NCBI GenBank assembly: GCA_020832345.1
Contig: JAFIEY010000035.1
Coordinates: 1 to 45,975 of the forward strand
Reading direction: 5' to 3'
Source: Cryomorphaceae bacterium
GTDB lineage: Bacteria; Bacteroidota; Bacteroidia; Flavobacteriales; Schleiferiaceae
DNA: 45,975 nucleotides
Shown: positions 4,929 to 17,449 of the stretch, one piece after another
Layout: each line of letters starts with the position of its first letter
Numbering within the stretch: the stretch's first letter is position 1
The notes under the pieces: model-generated
The model's input: only the letters and a program-made list of their open reading frames with translations
Databases searched by the model: none
What the model was told of the DNA's origin: nothing
Position numbers and translations under genes: made by a program

Positions 4929-6269
4929 TTTTTCTGTCCATTTTTTATATGGAGGATATCGCAGCGGAATATCGATAAGGGTATTGCTGCTGTACACCGA
5001 TTTTTTATGGCTAAAACAGTCGATACTGAACTTTCCGTGATAATTTCCCATGCCACTTTCACCTACGCCGCCAAAGGGCAGTTCGCTATTTGCAAGGTGC
5101 ATAATAACGTCGTTAAAAACCAATCCGCCACTTGAAGTTTCATTTTCAAAACGCCTTTTCACCGAGTTTTTATTGGTAAAAATGTACATGGCTAGGGGTT
5201 TGGGGCGTGCATTGATAAAGTAAATGGCTTCATCAGCATCAGAAACTGGAATGATGGGCAATACGGGGCCAAAAATCTCTTCTTCCATACTGGGATGGTC
5301 TGCCGCTTCTATAATGATAGGACTTGGGGGAATGTAACGATTGGCTGGGTCACATTTGGCTTTGTTTGGCAGCATGGCAGAAATCCTGTCGAAGTGATGG
5401 TTCGAAATAATCCTTCCGTAATCTGAACTTTTTTTAGGGTCACTGCCAAAAAAATCCTCGATGTATTTTTCCAGTAATTTTACAAATTCACGACAATGGC
5501 TTCGGTGAATTAAAACGTAATCGGGTGCAATGCAGGTTTGTCCCGCATTGATGAATTTTCCCCATGCCACACGTTTTGCGGCCAGTTTTAAATTGGCTTT
5601 TTGGTCGATATAGGTTGGACTTTTTCCTCCGAGTTCCAAAGTTACCGGAATAAGATGATCAGCCGCCGCCTTCATCACAATTTTTCCAACTTTGGTGCTT
5701 CCTGTAAAAAAGATGTGATTCCACGGAATTTCCAAAAGCGCTTTGGAAACCTCAATACCACCGGTAACGACGGCAACATGCGACTCGTCAAATGCTTCCC
5801 GAATGATTTTTGCCACAACCTTTTCAGTGGCGGGAGAAAGTTCAGAGGGCTTTACTGTAACGACATTTCCCGCTGCTATAGCCCCCACCAATGGCGCCAT
5901 CACCAATTGAAAGGGGTAATTCCACGGCGCAATGATCAGACTAACACCTAAAGGTTCGGTTATGATCTTACTGCTTCCCGGGCCTGTAATATGGATGGGC
6001 GTGGCAACCTTTTCGGCAGCTGTCCAGGATTCCATATTAAAAATCATATCCTTAATTTCCTTTCGCACATAACCGATTTCCGTCGCAAGGGCCTCAAATG
6101 AAGATTTGTGTAAATCATCATAAAGGGCTTGGGTAATTTCCGCACTGTACCGATCGATGGAAGCGTTTAGTTTTTTGAGTGCTTTTTTCCGAAACGACAA
6201 AGGACGAGTAACTCCACTGTGGAAATATGTCCTTTGTCGATCGAGGTGAGTCTGAAAATTTATTTTCAT
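4908..6269 (-). CDS. Aldehyde dehydrogenase, ALDH3-like class
   Basis: 453 residues, the short length typical of ALDH3/AlkH-type enzymes (others are about 490-500). Visible motifs are EPLGVSLIIAPWNYPFQL (NAD-binding side), FTGSTKVGK, the general-base region TLELGGKSPTYID and the nucleophile region NAGQTCIAPDYVL, with the catalytic Cys in GQTC. The C-terminal SELPFGGVGESGMGNYHGK is also typical. It oxidises fatty or aromatic aldehydes to carboxylic acids with NAD(P). It sits 17 bp downstream of the acyl-CoA dehydrogenase gene on the same strand, so a joint role in lipid or aldehyde catabolism is a reasonable inference. No C-terminal membrane anchor beyond a mildly hydrophobic LLNWIF end. Confidence 0.95.
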   Translation of the reverse strand: MKINFQTHLDRQRTYFHSGVTRPLSFRKKALKKLNASIDRYSAEITQALYDDLHKSSFEALATEIGYVRKEIKDMIFNMESWTAAEKVATPIHITGPGSSKIITEPLGVSLIIAPWNYPFQLVMAPLVGAIAAGNVVTVKPSELSPATEKVVAKIIREAFDESHVAVVTGGIEVSKALLEIPWNHIFFTGSTKVGKIVMKAAADHLIPVTLELGGKSPTYIDQKANLKLAAKRVAWGKFINAGQTCIAPDYVLIHRSHCREFVKLLEKYIEDFFGSDPKKSSDYGRIISNHHFDRISAMLPNKAKCDPANRYIPPSPIIIEAADHPSMEEEIFGPVLPIIPVSDADEAIYFINARPKPLAMYIFTNKNSVKRRFENETSSGGLVFNDVIMHLANSELPFGGVGESGMGNYHGKFSIDCFSHKKSVYSSNTLIDIPLRYPPYKKWTEKLLNWIF

Positions 6270-6286
6270 TCTAGGTTTTTAAAAAA

Positions 6287-8083
6287 TTACCCTTCAAAGT
6301 CGTACCCATTCGCTTCAATTAAATCATCCGCAATAACATCGCGAATTTCTTTGGGATTGATGGGAGATGGATATTTGATGAATCGCTTTAATCCCATGAG
6401 CATAACGCGTTGTTCGTCTCCGCTAGCAAAGCTGTAAATGGCTTCCCTTCCGGCAAAACCGGTGCGCTCCACAGCTTGATACATGGTCAGTTGGGCTTTC
6501 GCAATGGCAACCTTAGCTTCTTTTTCGCCACGAAGTTCCATGATTTTTTTTGCCCGTAACAACGCTGATTCAGCTATGTAGGTTTGAATGACCATATCGG
6601 CGACACTCATCAGAACTTCCTGTTGATCCTCGAGCTCCATACCAAAATGTTCGGCGGCCTTGCCGGAAACCATTAATACTGATTTTTTTAATCCTTCCAA
6701 AATATGGGTTTCCATTGAAAGAGGTTCGGAATAATCGGGTGCATCAAAAGATGGAATTTCCATGAGTTCCTTACCAACCTTCATGGCCGGCCCCATTAGG
6801 TCGAGTTCGCCTTTCATGGCCCTGCGAAGCAACATTCCGACAATCAACATACGATTAATTTCATTGGTTCCTTCGTAAATTCTCGATATTCGAACATCGC
6901 GATAAGCGGCTTCCATAGGCGCATCGGCAGAGAATCCCATGCCACCGTAAATCTGAACCCCTTCATCGGTGACGAAGCTGGAAGCCTCGGATCCGTAAAC
7001 TTTTAAAATAGCACATTCCACGGCAAATTCTTCGACGCCCTGCAAGTGGGCCTTTTGAGGATCCATTTCTTTTTCAAGACGCTTGATGTTATTTTCAATG
7101 TCTTGACCGGCGCGATAACACGCGGCTTCACTGGCAAATGTACGGGCACTCATTTCCGCCAATTTCTGACGAATGGCGCCAAATGAACTGATGGGTTTGT
7201 TGAATTGATGGCGTTCATTGGCATATTTTACGGAAAGGTCAATAACGCGACGATTTGCATCAAGGGTGGCAGCAGCCAGTTTGATTCGACCTACGTTGAG
7301 ACTGTTCATCGCGATTTTAAAACCACCACCCCGCTCACCGAGTAAGTTATCTGCCGGAATTTTGCAGTCGTTGAAAAATACCTGACGAGTAGATGAGGCG
7401 TGGATGCCCATTTTATTTTCCTCTTCGCCAAAACTCATGCCTTCAGTTCCGCGTTCAACGATAAAACCTGTTATGTACTTATCGTCTTCAATTCTTGCAA
7501 AAACAATAAAGACATCGGCAAAACCGGCATTGGAAATCCACATTTTTTGTCCGGTAATGGAATAGTGCTTCCCGTCGTCACTGAGTACAGCTTTTGTTTT
7601 TCCGCTATTGGCATCTGAACCGGCACCGGGTTCGGTAAGACAATATGCACCTGTGTATTCCCCGGAAGCGAGTTTGGGTAAATACTTTTCTTTTTGCGCT
7701 TCGGTACCGTAAAATAAAATAGGTAATGTGCCAATGCCTGTATGTGCACCAAAAGCGGTAGAGAGTGAACCGGAAACACCGGAAAGTCGGTCACAAACCA
7801 GCATCGAGGTGTTGAAGTCCAGTCCCATACCCTGATACTTTTCGGGCACGGCAATACTCAACATGCCCATTTCACCGATTTTTTTCATCAACGATTTCGT
7901 CCATTCGTAATCTTTTTTCTCAAAACGTTCGCGCTGGGGCGCTACTTCCTTATCTATAAATTCCCGACAAGTTGCGGCAATCATTCGCTGCTCTTCACTA
8001 AATGATTCCGGAATAAAAATTTCGTCTGGTGAGAAGTTTTTGATGAGAAATTCGCCACCGCGGAGTTGATTTTCTTTTGACAT
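6287..8083 (-). CDS. Acyl-CoA dehydrogenase, long VLCAD-like form
   Basis: About 598 residues from MSKENQLRGGEFL, longer than the usual 380-residue ACAD. It carries the extra C-terminal helical domain seen in very-long-chain enzymes and their Bacteroidota homologues. Motifs include CLTEPGAGSDANSGKT, KMWISNAGFADVFIVFA (FAD/substrate contacts), VQIYGGMGFSADAPMEAAYRD and RIYEGTNEINRML, where the Glu after RIY is the expected catalytic base. It catalyses the first FAD-dependent step of beta-oxidation. The frame stays open to an ATG at 8143, but that start lies inside an inserted repeat element (8113-8248) and adds residues absent from the family, so 8083 is preferred. An aldehyde dehydrogenase gene follows 17 bp downstream. 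Confidence 0.93.
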   Translation of the reverse strand: MSKENQLRGGEFLIKNFSPDEIFIPESFSEEQRMIAATCREFIDKEVAPQRERFEKKDYEWTKSLMKKIGEMGMLSIAVPEKYQGMGLDFNTSMLVCDRLSGVSGSLSTAFGAHTGIGTLPILFYGTEAQKEKYLPKLASGEYTGAYCLTEPGAGSDANSGKTKAVLSDDGKHYSITGQKMWISNAGFADVFIVFARIEDDKYITGFIVERGTEGMSFGEEENKMGIHASSTRQVFFNDCKIPADNLLGERGGGFKIAMNSLNVGRIKLAAATLDANRRVIDLSVKYANERHQFNKPISSFGAIRQKLAEMSARTFASEAACYRAGQDIENNIKRLEKEMDPQKAHLQGVEEFAVECAILKVYGSEASSFVTDEGVQIYGGMGFSADAPMEAAYRDVRISRIYEGTNEINRMLIVGMLLRRAMKGELDLMGPAMKVGKELMEIPSFDAPDYSEPLSMETHILEGLKKSVLMVSGKAAEHFGMELEDQQEVLMSVADMVIQTYIAESALLRAKKIMELRGEKEAKVAIAKAQLTMYQAVERTGFAGREAIYSFASGDEQRVMLMGLKRFIKYPSPINPKEIRDVIADDLIEANGYDFEG

Positions 8084-8554: not shown

Positions 8555-11500
8555 ATGCATAAATTTTTACTGATCTCTACTTTAGTGTTTTGTTTTCTCA
8601 GGGTACATGCGCATGAGGGTAATCCGGTTTTTATTGCAAATGAAGGGCAATGGGCTGAAGATTATGCATTGCGCACGGAAATGGTTAATGGTCAAATATA
8701 TTTTCATACCAACCGAATTCTCTTCCAGCTGACAGATCCCCGTGTTAAATCTCACATTCACGCGCACCACAAATATCCTGATGATCAGGATGGCTTGGCC
8801 TACTCCATCGATGAAAATGGAAAAATGGTGGTGCCTGAGCACACATATCAGGTGAGTTGGGTAGGTGGCAATAAACGACCTGAGGTAATCGCGGAGCGAA
8901 AACTCAATTATCATCACAATTATTTTATTGGTGTGGATAAGCGCAAATGGAAATCCAAGGTCGGTGTTTACAGAAGAGTACGTTATGCTGGAATTTATTC
9001 CGGGATTGATATGCGTTGGTACGGGGAAAAGGAAACTTTAAAATACGATTTTCGGTTGGATGTAGGAGCTGATCCCGGACTAATTGCAATGAAGTTTGAC
9101 TTCTTAGACTCATTACAGATTATAGATGGAAAATTACACCTATTTACTTCACTGGGGAAAATTGTAGAGCAAAAGCCTTTTGCATATCAGGTAAAAAATG
9201 GTGTTTACATCAAAGTCGATTGTCAATTTGTTTTACAGGACAATATTTTGACTTTTCAATTGGGGAAATACGATCCGGATTACGAATTGGTCATTGACCC
9301 ATCTATTGTTTTTTCATCCTTTACAGGTTCCGTTGCCGATAACTGGGGATTTACCGCTACTTATGATCACGAGGATGCAATGTATGCCGGGGGTATGGTT
9401 TTTAATATGAATTACCCCACCAGTACGGGCGCTTACCAAACGACCTATGGCGGGGGGAACACAGATGTTTCAATTTTCAAATTCAGTCCCGACGGTACCG
9501 CCATGGAGTATTCAACCTTCCTAGGGGGCAATAATTCCGAGCAACCCCATTCCATGATCGTGACCCCGGATAAGGAGTTGGTCGTATTCGGTACGACTTC
9601 ATCATTAAATTTCCCGACTACAACTTCGGCGCATCAAACGACATTTGGCGGAGGGGGTCTTTTTACCTTGCCAGGTTATACCTTTAATAATGGTTCGGAT
9701 ATTTTCATCACCAAATTTGATTCAACCGGTTCAGCACTTTTGGGTTCCACCTTCTATGGAGGCTCCGCCAACGACGGCATCAATTTGGATCTCATTCGCA
9801 ATTATGGCGACTATGCCCGCGGTGAAGTTTTTCTGGATTCGCTGGATAATGTCTATATCGCTTCCATGACCAATTCCGCAAATTTAACATTGCCCAATGC
9901 TGCATTTTCAACTTATGGAGGTGGCTCCGACGCCATTTTACTCAAATTTTCACCCAACCTAAACACCCTTTTATGGGGCACATACTTCGGTGGATTTAAT
10001 CACGATGCAGCCTATAGCGTCCGAATTTATCAACAGCGGGTATATATCGCAGGAGGAACCCTTAGTCCCGATATACCCGTGGATAGTAGTAACCCCGGCT
10101 ACTCCATTACGCATAATGGAAATATCGATGGGTTTATTGCCAGATTCAATATGACGAGTGGCGCTTTTGAAGGCAGTACATATTACGGAACGGGGCAGTA
10201 CGATCAAATATTTTTTATCGATACGGATAGAATGGGTAGCGTTTATGCTTTAGGCCAAACCAAGGGCGTAATCCCCATGTCTTCCGGAAAATACGGACAA
10301 TCAGATGGAAAGCAATTTATCACTAAATTTAATGAAGACCTAACCTCCGTTTTGTGGAACACCAACATAGGAAATAGCAACGGCGATTTGGTTTCACCCT
10401 CGGCATTTGAGGTGGATAATTGTAACGCCATTCTCTTTAGTGCCTGGGGAGGTGTTAGTAACAATCCCTCGCCATTTTTTAATAATCTTGTGCCTGAACA
10501 AAACGGATTTACCAACGGATTACCCGTTACCCCAAACGCCTTCCAATTGAATACAGACGGAAGTGATTTCTATTTTTGTGCTTTGGCTGCAAATGCAACT
10601 GCACTCGAATTTGCAACTTTTTTTGGTGGTACTGCTAATGAACATGTGGATGGAGGCACCAGTCGGTTTAGTCCTAATGGTATTATTTACCAAGCAGTAT
10701 GTGCAGCTTGTGGGGGTGGAACAGGCAATACCTTTCCAACTACGCCCGGTGTTTTTGCCCCAAACCGTCCGTCGAGTACAAACTGTAATAAGGCGGGTAT
10801 TAAAATTGACTTTAACCGATCCGTTGAGGCCAATGCCAATGTCGATATTTCCACCGAATTGGATTCGTTGTGCAATGGTTTTATGGTCAGCTTTGGTAAT
10901 GCCAGCAACAATGCCAATGGATATTTTTGGGATTTTGGCAATGGAGTAACTTCAACGGATTCTGCACCGACCGTGCTTTTTGTGGGCCCCAATGTTTATA
11001 CCGTCATGCTCGTAGCCATGGACACCAATTGCAATCTTTTTGATACTGTGTATTTGCAAGTTCCGGTAGAGAGTTTTATCAACCCCGTCGCGGCGGTAAC
11101 AGTTGATTATAATGATTGTGACCCACAGCGATTTGCGCAATTTAGCATAGATACAACTTTAGCGGATTATATCGAATGGAATTTTGGTGATGGCAGTGGA
11201 GTCATATTTGATTCGGTGCGAGATACAACTCATGTTTACCCGGGACCCGGGGTGTATTCTGGTTATATGGTTGCACATGATTCCATTTGTGGACAAACTG
11301 ATACTGTATTTTTCTCAATAGAATTTATTGATTTGCAATTTGACTTTCCCGAAGTCCGCTTTGAAGCGGAAGAGTGTAAACCATTGAAATTAACGGGAAG
11401 GATGGATATAAGTGGCTTAGAACCCAATCGATATACGGTTGAGTGGTACTATGATGGAAATGTAGCCAGCGGTAGTTTTGTGGAAATGAACTTTTCAAGT

Positions 11501-11857
11501 GGTGGGTTTTTCACAGTGCGCATTGTTGTTTATGATGGCGTTTGTAATACTGAGTATGAAAAGGAATATGATGTAAAAATTGAAGCTTCCGCTGAGGAGT
11601 TGCAAATCCCCAATACATTTACGCCAAACGGAGATGGTAAAAATGATGTATTTACCGTTTTGGGAGATCCATGCATTGAGGACGCTGCTCTGTTTATTTA
11701 CAACCGTTGGGGTCAGGTTATGTTTGAAACCCGACAACCATTTGAGGTTTTTTGGGACGGTTATTTTGAGGGCAACTATGCTTCGCCAGGTGTGTACTAC
11801 TATTTATATGTTCAACAAGAACTGGAATTGAGGGGTACTATTCATTTGTACAGATAG
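8555..11857 (+). CDS. Large secreted protein: DUF7948 / SBBP-type repeats, PKD domains, T9SS type B sorting domain
   Basis: 1100 residues. Residues 1-19 (MHKFLLISTLVFCFLRVHA) form a Sec signal peptide. Residues about 24-250 (FIANEGQWAEDYALRTEM, ending ELVIDPSIVFSSF) match the N-terminal domain common in Bacteroidota proteins with SBBP beta-propeller repeats. About 255-770 holds repeated blades with motifs such as YSTFLGGNNSEQ, GSTFYGGSANDG, WGTYFGGFNHDA and FATFFGGTANEH. Two PKD-like domains follow (FWDFGNGVTS about 795-870; IEWNFGDGSG about 890-960). The last roughly 85 residues (IPNTFTPNGDGKNDVFTV, IYNRWGQVMFE, FWDGYFEGN) are the gliding-motility-type C-terminal domain that directs type IX secretion. 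Inference: a cell-surface or released adhesin. No partner gene is adjacent. Confidence 0.92.
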   Translation: MHKFLLISTLVFCFLRVHAHEGNPVFIANEGQWAEDYALRTEMVNGQIYFHTNRILFQLTDPRVKSHIHAHHKYPDDQDGLAYSIDENGKMVVPEHTYQVSWVGGNKRPEVIAERKLNYHHNYFIGVDKRKWKSKVGVYRRVRYAGIYSGIDMRWYGEKETLKYDFRLDVGADPGLIAMKFDFLDSLQIIDGKLHLFTSLGKIVEQKPFAYQVKNGVYIKVDCQFVLQDNILTFQLGKYDPDYELVIDPSIVFSSFTGSVADNWGFTATYDHEDAMYAGGMVFNMNYPTSTGAYQTTYGGGNTDVSIFKFSPDGTAMEYSTFLGGNNSEQPHSMIVTPDKELVVFGTTSSLNFPTTTSAHQTTFGGGGLFTLPGYTFNNGSDIFITKFDSTGSALLGSTFYGGSANDGINLDLIRNYGDYARGEVFLDSLDNVYIASMTNSANLTLPNAAFSTYGGGSDAILLKFSPNLNTLLWGTYFGGFNHDAAYSVRIYQQRVYIAGGTLSPDIPVDSSNPGYSITHNGNIDGFIARFNMTSGAFEGSTYYGTGQYDQIFFIDTDRMGSVYALGQTKGVIPMSSGKYGQSDGKQFITKFNEDLTSVLWNTNIGNSNGDLVSPSAFEVDNCNAILFSAWGGVSNNPSPFFNNLVPEQNGFTNGLPVTPNAFQLNTDGSDFYFCALAANATALEFATFFGGTANEHVDGGTSRFSPNGIIYQAVCAACGGGTGNTFPTTPGVFAPNRPSSTNCNKAGIKIDFNRSVEANANVDISTELDSLCNGFMVSFGNASNNANGYFWDFGNGVTSTDSAPTVLFVGPNVYTVMLVAMDTNCNLFDTVYLQVPVESFINPVAAVTVDYNDCDPQRFAQFSIDTTLADYIEWNFGDGSGVIFDSVRDTTHVYPGPGVYSGYMVAHDSICGQTDTVFFSIEFIDLQFDFPEVRFEAEECKPLKLTGRMDISGLEPNRYTVEWYYDGNVASGSFVEMNFSSGGFFTVRIVVYDGVCNTEYEKEYDVKIEASAEELQIPNTFTPNGDGKNDVFTVLGDPCIEDAALFIYNRWGQVMFETRQPFEVFWDGYFEGNYASPGVYYYLYVQQELELRGTIHLYR

Positions 11858-11915: not shown

Positions 11916-12935
11916 TCAAATTTCCCATCTCGCAAGGCTTCCCTCATCAAGTTTGCCCGACAAGCCGCGCTGGTGGTTGTACCATCCAACGATCCCAATC
12001 ATTGCCCCATTGTCGGTACAATATGAAAAAGGCGGAATATAGGTTTGTTTGCCATGTTTTTTACCAAAAGATACAATTCGATTCCTGAGTTCGCTATTTG
12101 CGGAAACGCCACCCGCAATGGCGATGTGATCGATTCCGGTCTTCTCAACGGCGCGTTCGAGTTTTTCCATGAGTATATCGACAATGGTAAACTGAATGGA
12201 AGCCGCTAAATCATTTAAATTTTTGGTCACAAAATCGCTGTCTTTTTGCTGGTTATTTTGCACCGTATATAAAAAGGATGTTTTTAATCCACTAAAGCTA
12301 AAATTTAAGTCTGGGATATTTGGCCGTCCAAAGGTGAATGCGTTCGGATTTCCGGATTTAGCATATTTGTCGATTAAGGGGCCACCGGGGTAGGGTAATC
12401 CCATTATTTTTGCGGCTTTGTCAAAGGCTTCACCGGCTGCATCATCTATGGTTTGCCCCAATAATACAAAATCATACGGGCTGTCAACCCTTACGATTTG
12501 AGTATGTCCTCCGGAAACGGTCAGGCATAAAAAGGGAAATTCTGGATTGCGCGAATCCACATTCTCAATCATGTGCGCGAGGATGTGTGCACGCATGTGG
12601 TGTACATCGTAGAGGGGAATGTCGAGACTTTGTGCCATGGATTTAGCAAAAGCGCCGCCCACGAGCAGAGCTCCCAATAATCCCGGACCTTTGGTGTAGG
12701 CAATTCCGTCCAACTGATTTGCAGTAATCCCAGCTTTTTTAAGGGCTTGGTCAATAACGGGCACGATATTTTCTTGATGTGCACGAGAGGCCAACTCAGG
12801 CACTACACCGCCGTATTCACGATGAATGTCCTGATTGGCTGTCACGTTTGACAAAACTCGACGATCAACCAATACGGCTGCCGAAGTATCGTCGCATGAA
12901 GATTCAATGCCTAAGATGTACTTTTGCCCATCCAT
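11916..12935 (-). CDS. tsaD: tRNA N6-adenosine threonylcarbamoyltransferase
   Basis: 339 residues from MDGQKYILGIESSCDDTSAAV. The ASKHA-fold signature IESSCDDTSAA, the metal-binding HHMRAHILAHM, the GGHTQIVRV strand, and the C-terminal GGVSANSELRNR and YCTDNGAMIG are all present. With its partners it transfers threonylcarbamoyl to A37 of ANN-decoding tRNAs. A longer frame runs to 13025, but those residues are not family-like. A TACCTTTG promoter box on this strand at 12983-12990 lies inside that extension, so the transcript would begin after the longer start. It is divergent from tamB. Stop codon is TGA, showing that TGA is used as stop here. Confidence 0.96.
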   Translation of the reverse strand: MDGQKYILGIESSCDDTSAAVLVDRRVLSNVTANQDIHREYGGVVPELASRAHQENIVPVIDQALKKAGITANQLDGIAYTKGPGLLGALLVGGAFAKSMAQSLDIPLYDVHHMRAHILAHMIENVDSRNPEFPFLCLTVSGGHTQIVRVDSPYDFVLLGQTIDDAAGEAFDKAAKIMGLPYPGGPLIDKYAKSGNPNAFTFGRPNIPDLNFSFSGLKTSFLYTVQNNQQKDSDFVTKNLNDLAASIQFTIVDILMEKLERAVEKTGIDHIAIAGGVSANSELRNRIVSFGKKHGKQTYIPPFSYCTDNGAMIGIVGWYNHQRGLSGKLDEGSLARWEI

Positions 12936-12982
12936 TTTATAAGATGTTATTTTTGTAATTCGCTTGTTGACTGTTTGTGTTG

Positions 12983-12990
12983 CAAAGGTA
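12983..12990 (-). promoter_or_regulatory. Bacteroidota -7 box for tsaD
   Basis: TACCTTTG on the minus strand matches TAnnTTTG. It lies about 47 bp upstream of the chosen tsaD ATG. No good -33 TTTG is visible at 19-21 bp. Confidence 0.45.
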
Positions 12991-13033
12991 CAACGGGGTT
13001 TATCACTGATTTTCGAGTAAGCCATATATATCT

Positions 13034-14821
13034 GTGAAGAAGTTTTTTCGGCGCTTTTTGCGCGTAATTTTTGGAACCATATTATTCCTACTCTTGGGGT
13101 TGGGGATTCTTGCTTATTGGCTGAGCTTACCTTCTACCCATACGTATTTGGCCAATAAGGGGATTGAGTGGTTGGAATCAAAGTTTGATGTTTCTGTGCA
13201 AATTGAAACTGCACAGGTTCGCTTGCCCAATTTACTTCAGCTAAAATCCTTGCTGATTTCCGATGAATATCGTGATACGCTTTTCTATGCACCCAATTTT
13301 GAGGTACGTGTGGGGCGATCTACAAAAACCAATATCGTCCTTCGAAAAGTAAACATAGAGGAACCCTATATCCGGATGATGCTTCCAGAGGGTGATACGG
13401 TTAATAATTGGCAGGTTTTTATTCAGAAATTTATACCCAAAACCGATCCCGATACAAATATAATTTTCTCCATTGATAAAGTTGAAATGAGTGGGGTACA
13501 TTTCAAAAAATACCTTTCACCCGAAGAAAGGCAGTTTAACTTCTGGAACAGCCATATCGAACTATCGGGTTTTGTTTATCACAACGGCAGGGTGGATGCG
13601 AATCTTGACAGTATTGCTTTTACAGGTAAACGATTACAACTCAATCACCTTGGAGGAAAATTCAAATATAAAAAGGATAAAGGCGTGTATTTGTCGGATA
13701 TGCATCTGCAAACCGAAAAGTCGGAGATTTTTGCAAATTTAGGCCTGGAGGTTGACAGCAATGCCGATTATAATGACTTTGTCAATCGTGTGCGATTACA
13801 AGCTGAATTTGAAGATGTTAAAGCGTCTTCTCAAGAGTTTATGCGGTTTTTTGATAAATTCCCCAACTTGGACGACTTTGTATTAAGTGGAAAAATTTGG
13901 GGAAAAATAAATGATCTGGAAGGAAGAGATGTTCGCTTCCGGTATGGTGCAAACACCAGTGGTGTAGCGGATCTCACTTTACAAAACATAGCAGAAGAGG
14001 ACATGCTTTTCGCCAATTTTGGTTTAAAGTACTTTCGTAGTAATTACGAGGAGTTTCACCGATTGATGAAAGCGCTTACAGGTGAGGATATATCCTTCAC
14101 CAAACCTTACTTGCCAACCTTCACTTTTGCAGGGGAATTTGTCGGTGATTTAGAATCATTTCGCAGTGTTGGAACATTGCACACGGAAGATGCTACATTG
14201 GATTTGGAGTTGGACTTTGACGCAGTAAATAAGCCGCTTATAAACGCATCGTATAAAGGGCAGGTAAAAGGACGGGGTGTTAATTTGCGAAAAATTTCCG
14301 GAATAGACGATTTTGGAACAGCCGATTTTAATGCCCGTATCGATGGTAAGGGACTGACACTAGATCTTTTCTCCGCAAAAATTAAGGGTGAAGTGAAACG
14401 AGTCGCTTATCAAAATTACAATTATAAAAACATTTCACTGGATGGTCAGTTTGAGGCATTATTTTTTGATGGTCAATTGAAAATTAAAGATCCAAATTTA
14501 GATTTACAATTCGATGGAACCGCTGATTTTACAAAGGAAAACTTTCGCCTAGATTTTATTGCATTAATCAATAATGCAGATATATTTGGACTAGGATTTT
14601 ATGCTGACGACAGTATATACTTGGTTAATGGTGAGGCATTTGTAAACCTTGCGAGGAACGTCGATGGAGAATGGGTTGGAGAGGCTCGATTGTCCGATTG
14701 TTTAATTCAGCGCAGTAGAGGGGTGTATTTCTTTCGGGATATTACCGCTTCTTCTTATGAAAAAGGAAGTCAAAACGTACTCTCTGTTCAAGCTGATTTC
14801 ATAGAGTTTCTCGCCACTTGA
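13034..14821 (+). CDS. tamB: TamB-like translocation/assembly protein, N-terminal part (ends at in-frame TGA)
   Basis: 595 codons from a GTG start. Residues about 8-30 (a run such as FGTILFLLLGLGILAYWL) form one N-terminal inner-membrane helix. After it comes AsmA/TamB-like sequence (THTYLANKGIEWLESKFDVS), then repetitive beta-rich segments expected of the hydrophobic-groove periplasmic bridge. The frame stops at TGA 14819-14821. The next open part (14852-17449) is in exactly the same frame, and the ten codons between read sensibly (RFKIVDLFQS). The two parts therefore look like one 1471-codon gene, normal for Bacteroidota TamB-like proteins, broken by a single nonsense codon. Alone, this product would lack the conserved C-terminal domain. 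It is divergent from tsaD (98 bp between starts). Confidence 0.85.
   Translation: MKKFFRRFLRVIFGTILFLLLGLGILAYWLSLPSTHTYLANKGIEWLESKFDVSVQIETAQVRLPNLLQLKSLLISDEYRDTLFYAPNFEVRVGRSTKTNIVLRKVNIEEPYIRMMLPEGDTVNNWQVFIQKFIPKTDPDTNIIFSIDKVEMSGVHFKKYLSPEERQFNFWNSHIELSGFVYHNGRVDANLDSIAFTGKRLQLNHLGGKFKYKKDKGVYLSDMHLQTEKSEIFANLGLEVDSNADYNDFVNRVRLQAEFEDVKASSQEFMRFFDKFPNLDDFVLSGKIWGKINDLEGRDVRFRYGANTSGVADLTLQNIAEEDMLFANFGLKYFRSNYEEFHRLMKALTGEDISFTKPYLPTFTFAGEFVGDLESFRSVGTLHTEDATLDLELDFDAVNKPLINASYKGQVKGRGVNLRKISGIDDFGTADFNARIDGKGLTLDLFSAKIKGEVKRVAYQNYNYKNISLDGQFEALFFDGQLKIKDPNLDLQFDGTADFTKENFRLDFIALINNADIFGLGFYADDSIYLVNGEAFVNLARNVDGEWVGEARLSDCLIQRSRGVYFFRDITASSYEKGSQNVLSVQADFIEFLAT
14819..14821 (+). other. 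In-frame TGA interrupting tamB
   Basis: Codons read GCC ACT TGA CGT TTT AAA, with the frame open for 595 codons before and 875 after. A GGA to TGA change (Gly to stop) is the simplest one-base explanation. A sequencing error is an alternative. Confidence 0.85.
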
Positions 14822-14851
14822 CGTTTTAAAATTGTAGATTTATTCCAATCA

Positions 14852-17449
14852 TTGAAAATCGCTTTACTACAAAAGAGCTCTTACCATGAATTAGACGAAG
14901 AAGACACAGATGTTGCTTTTTCTTTAGATATGAAATCCGGGGATACCCGTTTACTCACCGATTTGTTTCTACCCGAATTATATCTTAGCCCGGGCACTGA
15001 ACTCATGATTCGACATCGTTTGGACGGAAATAATACACAGATTAAACTTGAAAGCCCTGGGGTTTTATATGGTGATATGGAAGGGAGAAATATTAAAACG
15101 GATGTTGTTCTTGGGGATAATTCTCCATTAAATATTCAGGTAGAAAACTTGAAACTAGGGAAATTTGATTTTCAATCCTTGGCCTTTTATGGCAATCTAC
15201 ACCCGGATTCGCTGCATTTTGATTTTAAACTGGGCATTGATGAAAATGTTGGAGGTATCATTCACTTACGCGGCGATGCGGTACAGGTAGATACCAATAA
15301 ATTGGGGGTTTGGTTTTTACCAACTGATTGGTACATTGGCGAGGGGATTTTTTCCATCGCTTCCGACAACGCCTTTTTTATCAGCAAAGATGGAATTAGT
15401 GTGCAGGATTTTGAAGTAGTTTCCGAGGGCAGAACCATGAAGGTAAATGGTTATGTCTCCAAATCACCTTATGAAATTCTTCGTGTTCAGGTTGAGAATT
15501 TTTCCGTTGACATTTTTAATTTTCTCTTAACCAATTCTGGTTATCAATTGCATGGATTGTTGGAAGGCGAAATCATTTTGAATAGTTTATTGGAAAAACC
15601 TCGTTTTGCCTCCAATCTCAAAATCGATAGTTTATATGTCAATGAAGATTGGTTGGGTAATTTGTTTATTGATTCGGAGTGGTATATCAGCGATATGTTT
15701 ATCGATCTCGATGTTCATCTCGACCGCGGTAGGCTTCGCACACTTGTAATTGAAGGACAATACTTTCCCGATGCAGATGGAGAAAATCTCGACCTGAAAC
15801 TCATCATGGATAGGTTTAGGATTCATCCATTTACGAATTTGCTCACGGCTTTTACCGATAATGTCCGTGGAGTAGCCAGTGGACAGGTGGCAGTAAAAGG
15901 TCGTCTCGCTCGTCCGTATTTCGAAGGTGAGCTGCAAGTGCCCAACCTCGGTTTATCAGTTCCTTACCTAAATACGGATTACAATATCGAAGGTGCGCCA
16001 ATTATTCGATTTTCCGAAAAACAAATTTTTATTCCCCAAGCACAGGTTCGAGATTCAAAAGAAGGTACTTTAGGTACCGTTCGCGCTGATTTAAGGCACG
16101 ACTTTTTTACCGACTGGCAAATTGATGTTCACATAGATGCCGATAGACTTCTATTATTGGACACCGATATTTCTCTCAACGATTACTATTTTGGAAAAGC
16201 ATTTGTCAGTGGGGAAATTGATATTAAAGGACCTACTTCAGATTTGAAAATGCTGATTGATGTCAAAACCAATAGAGGAACTCAATTTTTTATTCCGGTG
16301 GATGGTCCGACAGAAGTCAATCCCATGGGATTTGTTGACTTCGTTGAGCCTGCCAAGGAAAATGAAGAAAAGGAATCGCCTTTCCGGGTGGCCAAAGTTG
16401 AGGATAGTGGTTTGGAACTACAATTTAATATTGATGTTACACCTGATGCGGAGGTCATACTTATTATGGATCAGCGGACGGGAGAAAATATTCGTGGTAA
16501 TGGTCGGGGCAAGCTGAGACTCAATTTAGACCCACAAGGAAATATATCTTTATTTGGAAATTTGGAAATTAACAGGGGAGAGTATCTCTTTACCTTGGGC
16601 GGATTGGTGCGCAAAAGGTTTTTTATTGAACCCGGTGGTAGCATTTCCTTTAATGGAGACCCCTATGAAGCCATGTTAGATTTGTCATCAAAATACGTGA
16701 CCCGAACTTCTCTGAGTGGTGCTGTGGCCGATCCAACCTTGGCCTCGGTGCGAACGGAGGTTAATCTGTATCTACACCTTCAAGGGCCTATGCTCAATCC
16801 CGAAATCAAATTTGATATTAAACTTCCCAATGTAGCGCCCGGCATTCAGGCGGAGGTGGCCGACCGGTTTGCCGACCCCAATAGATTAACCCAACAGGCT
16901 TTTTCACTGTTGGCGCTCAACTCATTTTACGCAGATGATTTAGGCTTGGATGCCCAAGTGGCAGGTGGACTCACCAATACGACTTTTGATGTATTTGCCG
17001 GACAGGTCAACAACTTTCTTTCCCAATACGTAAAAGTGGTAGATATTGCGGTGAATTACACCGGGGAAGGAGCAACCGGTGCAAGTCAGGAGGAGTTTGA
17101 AGTGGCCGTTTCCCGTCGGTTGATGGATGACCGGGTGAGTATAAATGGAGTGGTGGGTGTGCCGCTTGGCGCCAATCAAAACCAACTCGCAGGTGATGTG
17201 GAGGTAGAAGTGATGCTTACGGAGGACGGTCGGGTAAGGGCAAAGGCATTTAACCGATCATATCAGAACAATTTTATTATCGAGCAAACCGGACTATACT
17301 CACAAGGGGTTGGACTTTTTTACCGTACCGATTTTAACCGCAGACGGGAATTGCTTCGGCGTATTTTATTTTTGGAAAAACAGAGACAGGATGAAGAAGC
17401 GGATGAAGAAGCGGATGAAGAAGCGGAAGAAGAAGTTGAGGAAGAGTAG
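14852..17449 (+). CDS. tamB: TamB-like protein, C-terminal part (DUF490 domain)
   Basis: 865 codons if started at TTG 14852, but more probably the second part of the gene beginning at 13034. It consists of beta-strand-rich repeats and a C-terminal TamB/DUF490 domain (RGNGRGKLRLNLDPQGN, EINRGEYLFTLGGLVRKRFF, PMLNPEIKFDIKLPN). The near-C-terminal region, with GLFYRTDFNRRRELLRRI, is typical of the family, which pairs with Omp85-type outer-membrane proteins or moves lipids between membranes. The extreme C-terminus is a run of Asp/Glu/Ala encoded by 12-bp tandem repeats. There is no signal peptide or membrane helix at the TTG start, which argues against an independent protein unless translated by readthrough. 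Confidence 0.85.
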   Translation: MKIALLQKSSYHELDEEDTDVAFSLDMKSGDTRLLTDLFLPELYLSPGTELMIRHRLDGNNTQIKLESPGVLYGDMEGRNIKTDVVLGDNSPLNIQVENLKLGKFDFQSLAFYGNLHPDSLHFDFKLGIDENVGGIIHLRGDAVQVDTNKLGVWFLPTDWYIGEGIFSIASDNAFFISKDGISVQDFEVVSEGRTMKVNGYVSKSPYEILRVQVENFSVDIFNFLLTNSGYQLHGLLEGEIILNSLLEKPRFASNLKIDSLYVNEDWLGNLFIDSEWYISDMFIDLDVHLDRGRLRTLVIEGQYFPDADGENLDLKLIMDRFRIHPFTNLLTAFTDNVRGVASGQVAVKGRLARPYFEGELQVPNLGLSVPYLNTDYNIEGAPIIRFSEKQIFIPQAQVRDSKEGTLGTVRADLRHDFFTDWQIDVHIDADRLLLLDTDISLNDYYFGKAFVSGEIDIKGPTSDLKMLIDVKTNRGTQFFIPVDGPTEVNPMGFVDFVEPAKENEEKESPFRVAKVEDSGLELQFNIDVTPDAEVILIMDQRTGENIRGNGRGKLRLNLDPQGNISLFGNLEINRGEYLFTLGGLVRKRFFIEPGGSISFNGDPYEAMLDLSSKYVTRTSLSGAVADPTLASVRTEVNLYLHLQGPMLNPEIKFDIKLPNVAPGIQAEVADRFADPNRLTQQAFSLLALNSFYADDLGLDAQVAGGLTNTTFDVFAGQVNNFLSQYVKVVDIAVNYTGEGATGASQEEFEVAVSRRLMDDRVSINGVVGVPLGANQNQLAGDVEVEVMLTEDGRVRAKAFNRSYQNNFIIEQTGLYSQGVGLFYRTDFNRRRELLRRILFLEKQRQDEEADEEADEEAEEEVEEE
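17390..17425 (+). repeat. 12-bp tandem repeat in tamB 3' end
   Basis: Three exact copies of GATGAAGAAGCG, each encoding Asp-Glu-Glu-Ala, followed by degenerate Glu codons to the stop. The unit keeps frame, so copy number can change without disrupting the gene. Confidence 0.9.

Follow-up and report, generated by a model that had tools for sequence, protein, structure and literature searches.

Results

Organization of the tamB locus

The DNA analyzed here (the window, 45,975 nucleotides of a Cryomorphaceae bacterium draft genome) carries a tamB-like gene on the plus strand that is interrupted by a single in-frame TGA codon. The frame at positions 13034–17446 consists of 595 sense codons, the TGA at 14819–14821 (codon 596) and 875 further sense codons, and it is closed by an ordinary gene end, TAG, at 17447–17449. 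The pre-stop part (13034–14818) begins with a GTG start codon and encodes a probable inner-membrane anchor, recognized by eye in the translation as hydrophobic residues at about 9–31 (13058–13126), followed by putative AsmA/TamB-like repeats that are assigned by homology. The post-stop part (14822–17446) contains no further stop. The initial annotation had described two open parts in one frame, ten codons reading RFKIVDLFQS between the TGA and the next TTG, and a 1471-codon gene broken by one codon only; each point, including the coordinates, agrees with the translation, in which neither part holds another stop. The TTG at 14852–14854 is the first possible restart codon after the stop, a purely mechanical designation from the open reading frame (ORF) list. 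At the base composition of the window, 875 open codons would follow a stop in the same frame with a probability of approximately 7e-24, and the same-frame openings behind 34 other ORF ends picked from the ORF list span 0–95 codons. Therefore, the long opening behind the TGA is not a product of chance.

The two parts differ in how they match known families. The post-stop part contains the Pfam TamB domain (PF04357; 205.3 bits, cut-off 22.4) at its residues 410–838 (16049–17335), which confirms the earlier designation of the gene as TamB-like and places the domain entirely 3' of the stop. The pre-stop part matches DUF748 alone in Pfam, with a score of 18.6 bits that lies below the cut-off of 50, and it is 36–40% identical over nearly its whole length to the homologous N-termini of four congeners. 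Full-length homologues form one open frame of about 1430–1530 codons, whereas the window gene is broken at codon 596. By length and domain, the window gene would correspond to the single-gene TamB of Bacteroidota (PMC12045153). It resembles F. johnsoniae Fjoh_4592 and C. canimorsus TamB in the C-terminal TamB domain and, by eye, in the N-terminal hydrophobic segment, and its 1471 codons are similar in number to the residues of Fjoh_4592, which are numbered up to 1494 in that paper. It differs from both in the in-frame TGA.

A divergent tsaD gene (11916–13025, minus strand; TIGR03723, 408.4 bits, cut-off 296.1) adjoins tamB in the window and in all four congeners. The true start of tsaD probably lies further in because residue 37 is the first one covered by the family match. 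Two genes from tamB, positions 8555–11857 encode a 1100-residue protein that carries a sorting domain of type IX secretion (type B; TIGR04131, 49.6 bits). The source genome contains six matches to the Omp85 family, all free of inner stops, and the Omp85-family search matched no gene on the contig of the window. This arrangement is in keeping with the report that tamB and tamL do not share an operon in Bacteroidota (PMC12045153).

The stop stands at an invariant glycine column and is private to one genome among those examined

Alignment with relatives, a check that the initial annotation had proposed, shows a glycine at the position of the TGA in every one of 29 homologues. These 29 rows are homologues from the same genus, family and order, with G029, G032, G035 and secondary matches left out; the frame is shorter in two of them, G002 and G010, owing to a contig end that is observed in the former and inferred in the latter. 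In 28 rows the glycine is followed by any residue and then by F or Y. The codons on both sides of the TGA fit the alignment, and the neighborhood of the stop is thus not otherwise disturbed.

A wider search covered 88 genomes of the family, including the source genome, and returned a match in 74 of them. Fifty matches besides that of the window cover codon 596. Five of these were flagged at first for a stop and turned out to be ordinary 3' ends, with the stop at 0.998–0.999 of the match or 13–19 codons behind it, so that no inner stop is present in the 50 spanning matches. This number was counted by reading the match table and includes paralogues and distant homologues, and the residue at the site itself was seen only for the 29 aligned homologues. 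Some flagged matches do not reach across codon 596: the stop falls at 0.979–0.989 of the match in G086, G094 and G102, and no stop lies inside the match in G080 and G002:C58. The 100-residue match of G087 contains two stops; it comes from a 3-kb contig in a genome that is 58% complete. The interruption is therefore private to the source genome among those examined. A relative closer than the four congeners was sought and not found, and records very near the source genome may be missing from the set. One further record, L066 (PBR18_bin05), is one of the four congeners, given that its match place and score are those of G002; its contig holds only the last third of tamB. The source genome, at 4.03 Mb, is considerably larger than those of the four congeners (2.3–2.6 Mb; G001–G004), which is a large difference within one genus.

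The post-stop part shows no decay

The part of the gene that would be released from selection by the stop offers 334 possible single-base nonsense changes, none of which is seen. This sets an upper limit of 2.7% (95% limit; about 2.7 per 100 sites) on the neutral change that can have followed a loss of constraint. The TamB domain is 77.8–81.1% identical to those of three full-length congeners, compared with 76.5–87.0% among the congeners themselves. The lesion, if real, is recent, as the initial annotation had supposed: a post-stop part that is conserved at the congener level and free of further stops implies that any loss of function occurred very recently. A dN/dS test would need a closer relative than those found. 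Among the signs of a pseudogene, removal of the main domain is evident, as the TamB domain lies wholly 3' of the stop, whereas relaxed constraint and further decay are not.

The only other match in the draft genome is a paralogue shared with congeners

A search for a second intact tamB, as suggested by the initial annotation, found none in the draft genome. The only other match to the post-stop part is an uninterrupted gene on contig C220 that encodes a longer protein (1620 residues) with a TamB domain. The C220 protein is 36.5–42.8% identical to the long paralogues of three congeners over 1637–1653 aligned columns and 20.6–26.0% identical to the TamB proteins of the congeners. In these three of the four congeners, the long paralogue exists besides a TamB, which is uninterrupted in G001 and G003 and truncated only by contig ends in G002. 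Thus, the C220 gene is the counterpart of a paralogue common to three congeners and not a recent replacement, and replacement of tamB by a second copy was rejected. The C220 gene, and not the window gene, resembles TamB2 of F. johnsoniae (Fjoh_1899) in its TamB domain and similar length. The label TamB2 is tentative, however, because no tamL2-like gene is seen beside the C220 gene.

No sign that TGA is recoded in this genome

Release factor 2 (RF2) is present (462.1 bits, cut-off 370), and TGA terminates 10 of the 34 listed ORFs of the window, with 1–61 open codons behind it. On contig C123 (L091, G000:C123), a release-factor-like gene (232 residues), which we take to be prfH-like, lies beside a gene that by eye looks like rtcB (5337–6035 and 6216–7658, both on the minus strand). 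The release-factor-like gene is uninterrupted because the TAA that was flagged must fall just before its start codon.

The best tRNA-Sec match scores 43.4 bits at the locus of a tRNA-Ser(UGA), below the cut-off of 47, with a model that exceeds this threshold in 5 of 14 control genomes. The best SelB match scores 188.8 bits at a 401-codon ORF, below the cut-off of 242.25, with a model that passes in 2 of 14 control genomes. At least 35 tRNA matches were obtained with Rfam from the 150 of 247 first-look candidates that were scored, and ARAGORN was run on 30 of these loci and on stretches that contain the remaining five. None of the tRNA genes called by ARAGORN has a UCA anticodon; this absence is not proof because the called set is incomplete and contains no tRNA-Ile. 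A weak match on contig C171 (L103; 1624–1694, 40.2 bits), which ARAGORN did not call, is possibly a degenerate tRNA. Taken together, RF2, the ordinary use of TGA as a stop, the sub-threshold tRNA-Sec and SelB matches and the lack of a UCA anticodon in the incomplete tRNA set led us to reject genome-wide recoding, selenocysteine insertion and a suppressor tRNA.

The initial annotation had also pointed to the C behind the TGA as a leaky context that might permit readthrough. This suggestion was not supported. The TGAC context is not special here, as it ends two of the ten listed window ORFs that terminate in TGA. No hairpin or stable RNA structure follows the stop: with z-scores of 0.55, 0.67 and 1.13, the sequence there folds less stably than the average shuffle. 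The searches turned up neither a suppressor nor a selenocysteine apparatus. The features expected of a recoded or read-through gene were not seen: the stop occurs in none of the 29 homologues, the decoding apparatus and a stimulating structure were not found, and RF2 is kept. Readthrough is therefore conceivable only as basal leakiness. A structure predicted without an alignment for 600 residues around the stop had a mean pLDDT of 31.8 and was not used.

In-frame breaks elsewhere in the genome

In-frame stops were surveyed in 383,482 bases, comprising the window and 20 further stretches (about 8% of the source genome). In this sample, 17 in-frame stops are flanked on each side by 150 or more open codons. 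Fifteen of the 16 junctions other than tamB were scanned with Pfam on both sides. Twelve join different families and represent neighboring genes; in the other three, one or both sides match nothing in Pfam, and NCBIfam is also silent on one such pair. No family is cut in two at any of the 15 scanned junctions, and the other two TGA junctions in the sample are neighboring genes. Thus, tamB alone among the sampled junctions was shown to be one gene cut in two, and general pseudogene decay was rejected, with three of the 15 junctions lacking a family call. Genome completeness is rated at 100% and contamination at 0.23%. This rating and the lack of another split gene in approximately 8% of the genome speak against a visibly poor assembly. 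As far as in-frame stops are concerned, the stop in tamB is not explained by recoding, by general decay or by an assembly of visibly poor quality.

Discussion

In Bacteroidota, TamB has been found in all 30 species examined, and its interaction with TamL and its requirement for viability are known from genera other than the present one (PMC12045153). Neither tamB nor tamL could be deleted in F. johnsoniae, whereas tamB2 and tamL2 could, and deletion of tamL and tamB also failed in C. canimorsus (PMC12045153). A fixed null allele is thus unlikely a priori, and the surprise that the initial annotation expressed at such an allele is justified. By analogy with these two species, TamB is probably needed here as well, and the stop is for this reason presumably not fixed.

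What, then, is the TGA in the window? On balance, we lean toward an error in the consensus or assembly, or a rare allele captured by the assembly, and against a working, fixed state of the organism. The stop probably arose through a single base change. A single-base nonsense change would then stand in place of the invariant glycine in the tsaD-linked TamB gene, the sole copy in the draft genome, and the living population would make full-length TamB. What tips the balance somewhat from a real null toward an error or a rare allele is that tamB is conserved in all four congeners, shows no decay and resisted deletion in two related genera. This reading is built on the sequence, and the evidence for essentiality comes from those two other genera only. 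A substantial fraction of raw candidates for in-frame stops is expected to be artefactual; in-frame stops in bacterial genes are reported to be widespread and mostly short-lived, so that a real one would not be exotic (Belinky et al. 2021, PMC7918605). Events of this kind are known, and the window gene shares with the cases of Belinky et al. the single nonsense codon, the otherwise conserved gene and the apparently recent origin; it differs in being seen in one genome only. Among the matches listed in our literature search, no title or abstract opening reports this allele or one of its kind.

A real and very recent null is less likely, although it is the foremost alternative to an error or a rare allele. 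The cell would retain a 595-residue anchored stub devoid of the whole Pfam TamB domain, and either a paralogue or an AsmA-like protein would compensate or the gene would be less needed in this lineage. The commonness of in-frame stops at the scale of polymorphism in bacteria (PMC7918605), the uninterrupted paralogue on C220 and the six Omp85-family matches without inner stops are all compatible with such a loss. However, the C220 paralogue is no new substitute, given that three of four congeners keep it together with TamB, and the presence of TamB2 in F. johnsoniae did not permit deletion of tamB (PMC12045153). Further decay, moreover, is not seen.

Leaky termination is improbable. UGA is described as a leaky stop that is read through as tryptophan in E. 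coli (PMC7918605), and basal readthrough, probably also as tryptophan, would lower the amount of full-length TamB without abolishing it. The full conservation of the gene 3' of the stop and its probable necessity (PMC12045153) would suit this idea. Against it, the inserted residue would replace an invariant glycine, RF2 is present, the stop is followed by no structured element and stands in a context shared with two other ORF ends, and its absence from all homologues seen gives no sign of conserved regulation. A bolder version, in which the TGA is real and fixed and the efficiency of termination determines how much of an essential envelope bridge protein is made by readthrough, has no specific support and is more doubtful again.

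We consider it very improbable that TamB is split here into two separately made parts that act together, the second one initiated at the TTG at 14852 or nearby. Both parts are open and conserved, but the second part lacks an N-terminal membrane segment and, to the eye, an export signal, the nearest start is a TTG ten codons on, no homologue seen is split at that point, and the stop falls within a conserved motif instead of a variable linker. Least credible of all is TGA as a sense codon, either reassigned to glycine or encoding selenocysteine: the column is indeed glycine, the residue encoded by UGA in Gracilibacteria and Absconditabacteria (PMC8629427), and a UCA tRNA could be missed in the incomplete tRNA set, but RF2 is present, TGA closes 10 of the 34 listed ORFs of the window, tRNA-Sec and SelB stay below their cut-offs, no UCA anticodon was called, and this group is not among the bacterial UGA reassignments listed in that paper.

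Should the TGA prove real and fixed, this relative of the flavobacteria would either do without full TamB or obtain it by readthrough, and each outcome would test the generality of the reported essentiality of TamB in Bacteroidota. If, as we judge more likely, the stop reflects an error or a rare allele, its relevance is limited to annotation, where the gene ought not to be entered as a natural loss of TamB.

A tandem array of tRNA-Gly-like genes

Three tandem tRNA-Gly-like genes are located on contig C182 (L096, G000:C182; 4762–4835, 4921–4994 and 5023–5096), and this array is unrelated to the stop in tamB. The predicted fold has an abnormal anticodon arm with a 7-bp stem and a 4-base UUCC loop. 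Two acceptor pairs are changed on both sides between the copies, a level that 108 of 500 shuffles of the three rows also reach. When aligned with four tRNAs of the source genome, the array looks closest by eye to the two tRNA-Gly. In a search of 196 genomes of the order, the array scores 104.5–107.2 bits, whereas the top matches elsewhere do not exceed 67.7 bits; six of those top matches were checked, and each is a tRNA-Gly(GCC). The 35-base core of the array, with up to three mismatches, occurs in the source genome and is absent from the other 87 of the 88 family genomes. A glycosyltransferase gene lies in front of the array, and a FemAB-family gene (5109–6098; 49.6 bits, cut-off 24) lies directly 3' of it. 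Staphylococci use tRNA-Gly and FemX for non-ribosomal glycine transfer; by analogy, the array tRNAs may be dedicated to non-ribosomal transfer of glycine (aminoacyl transfer).
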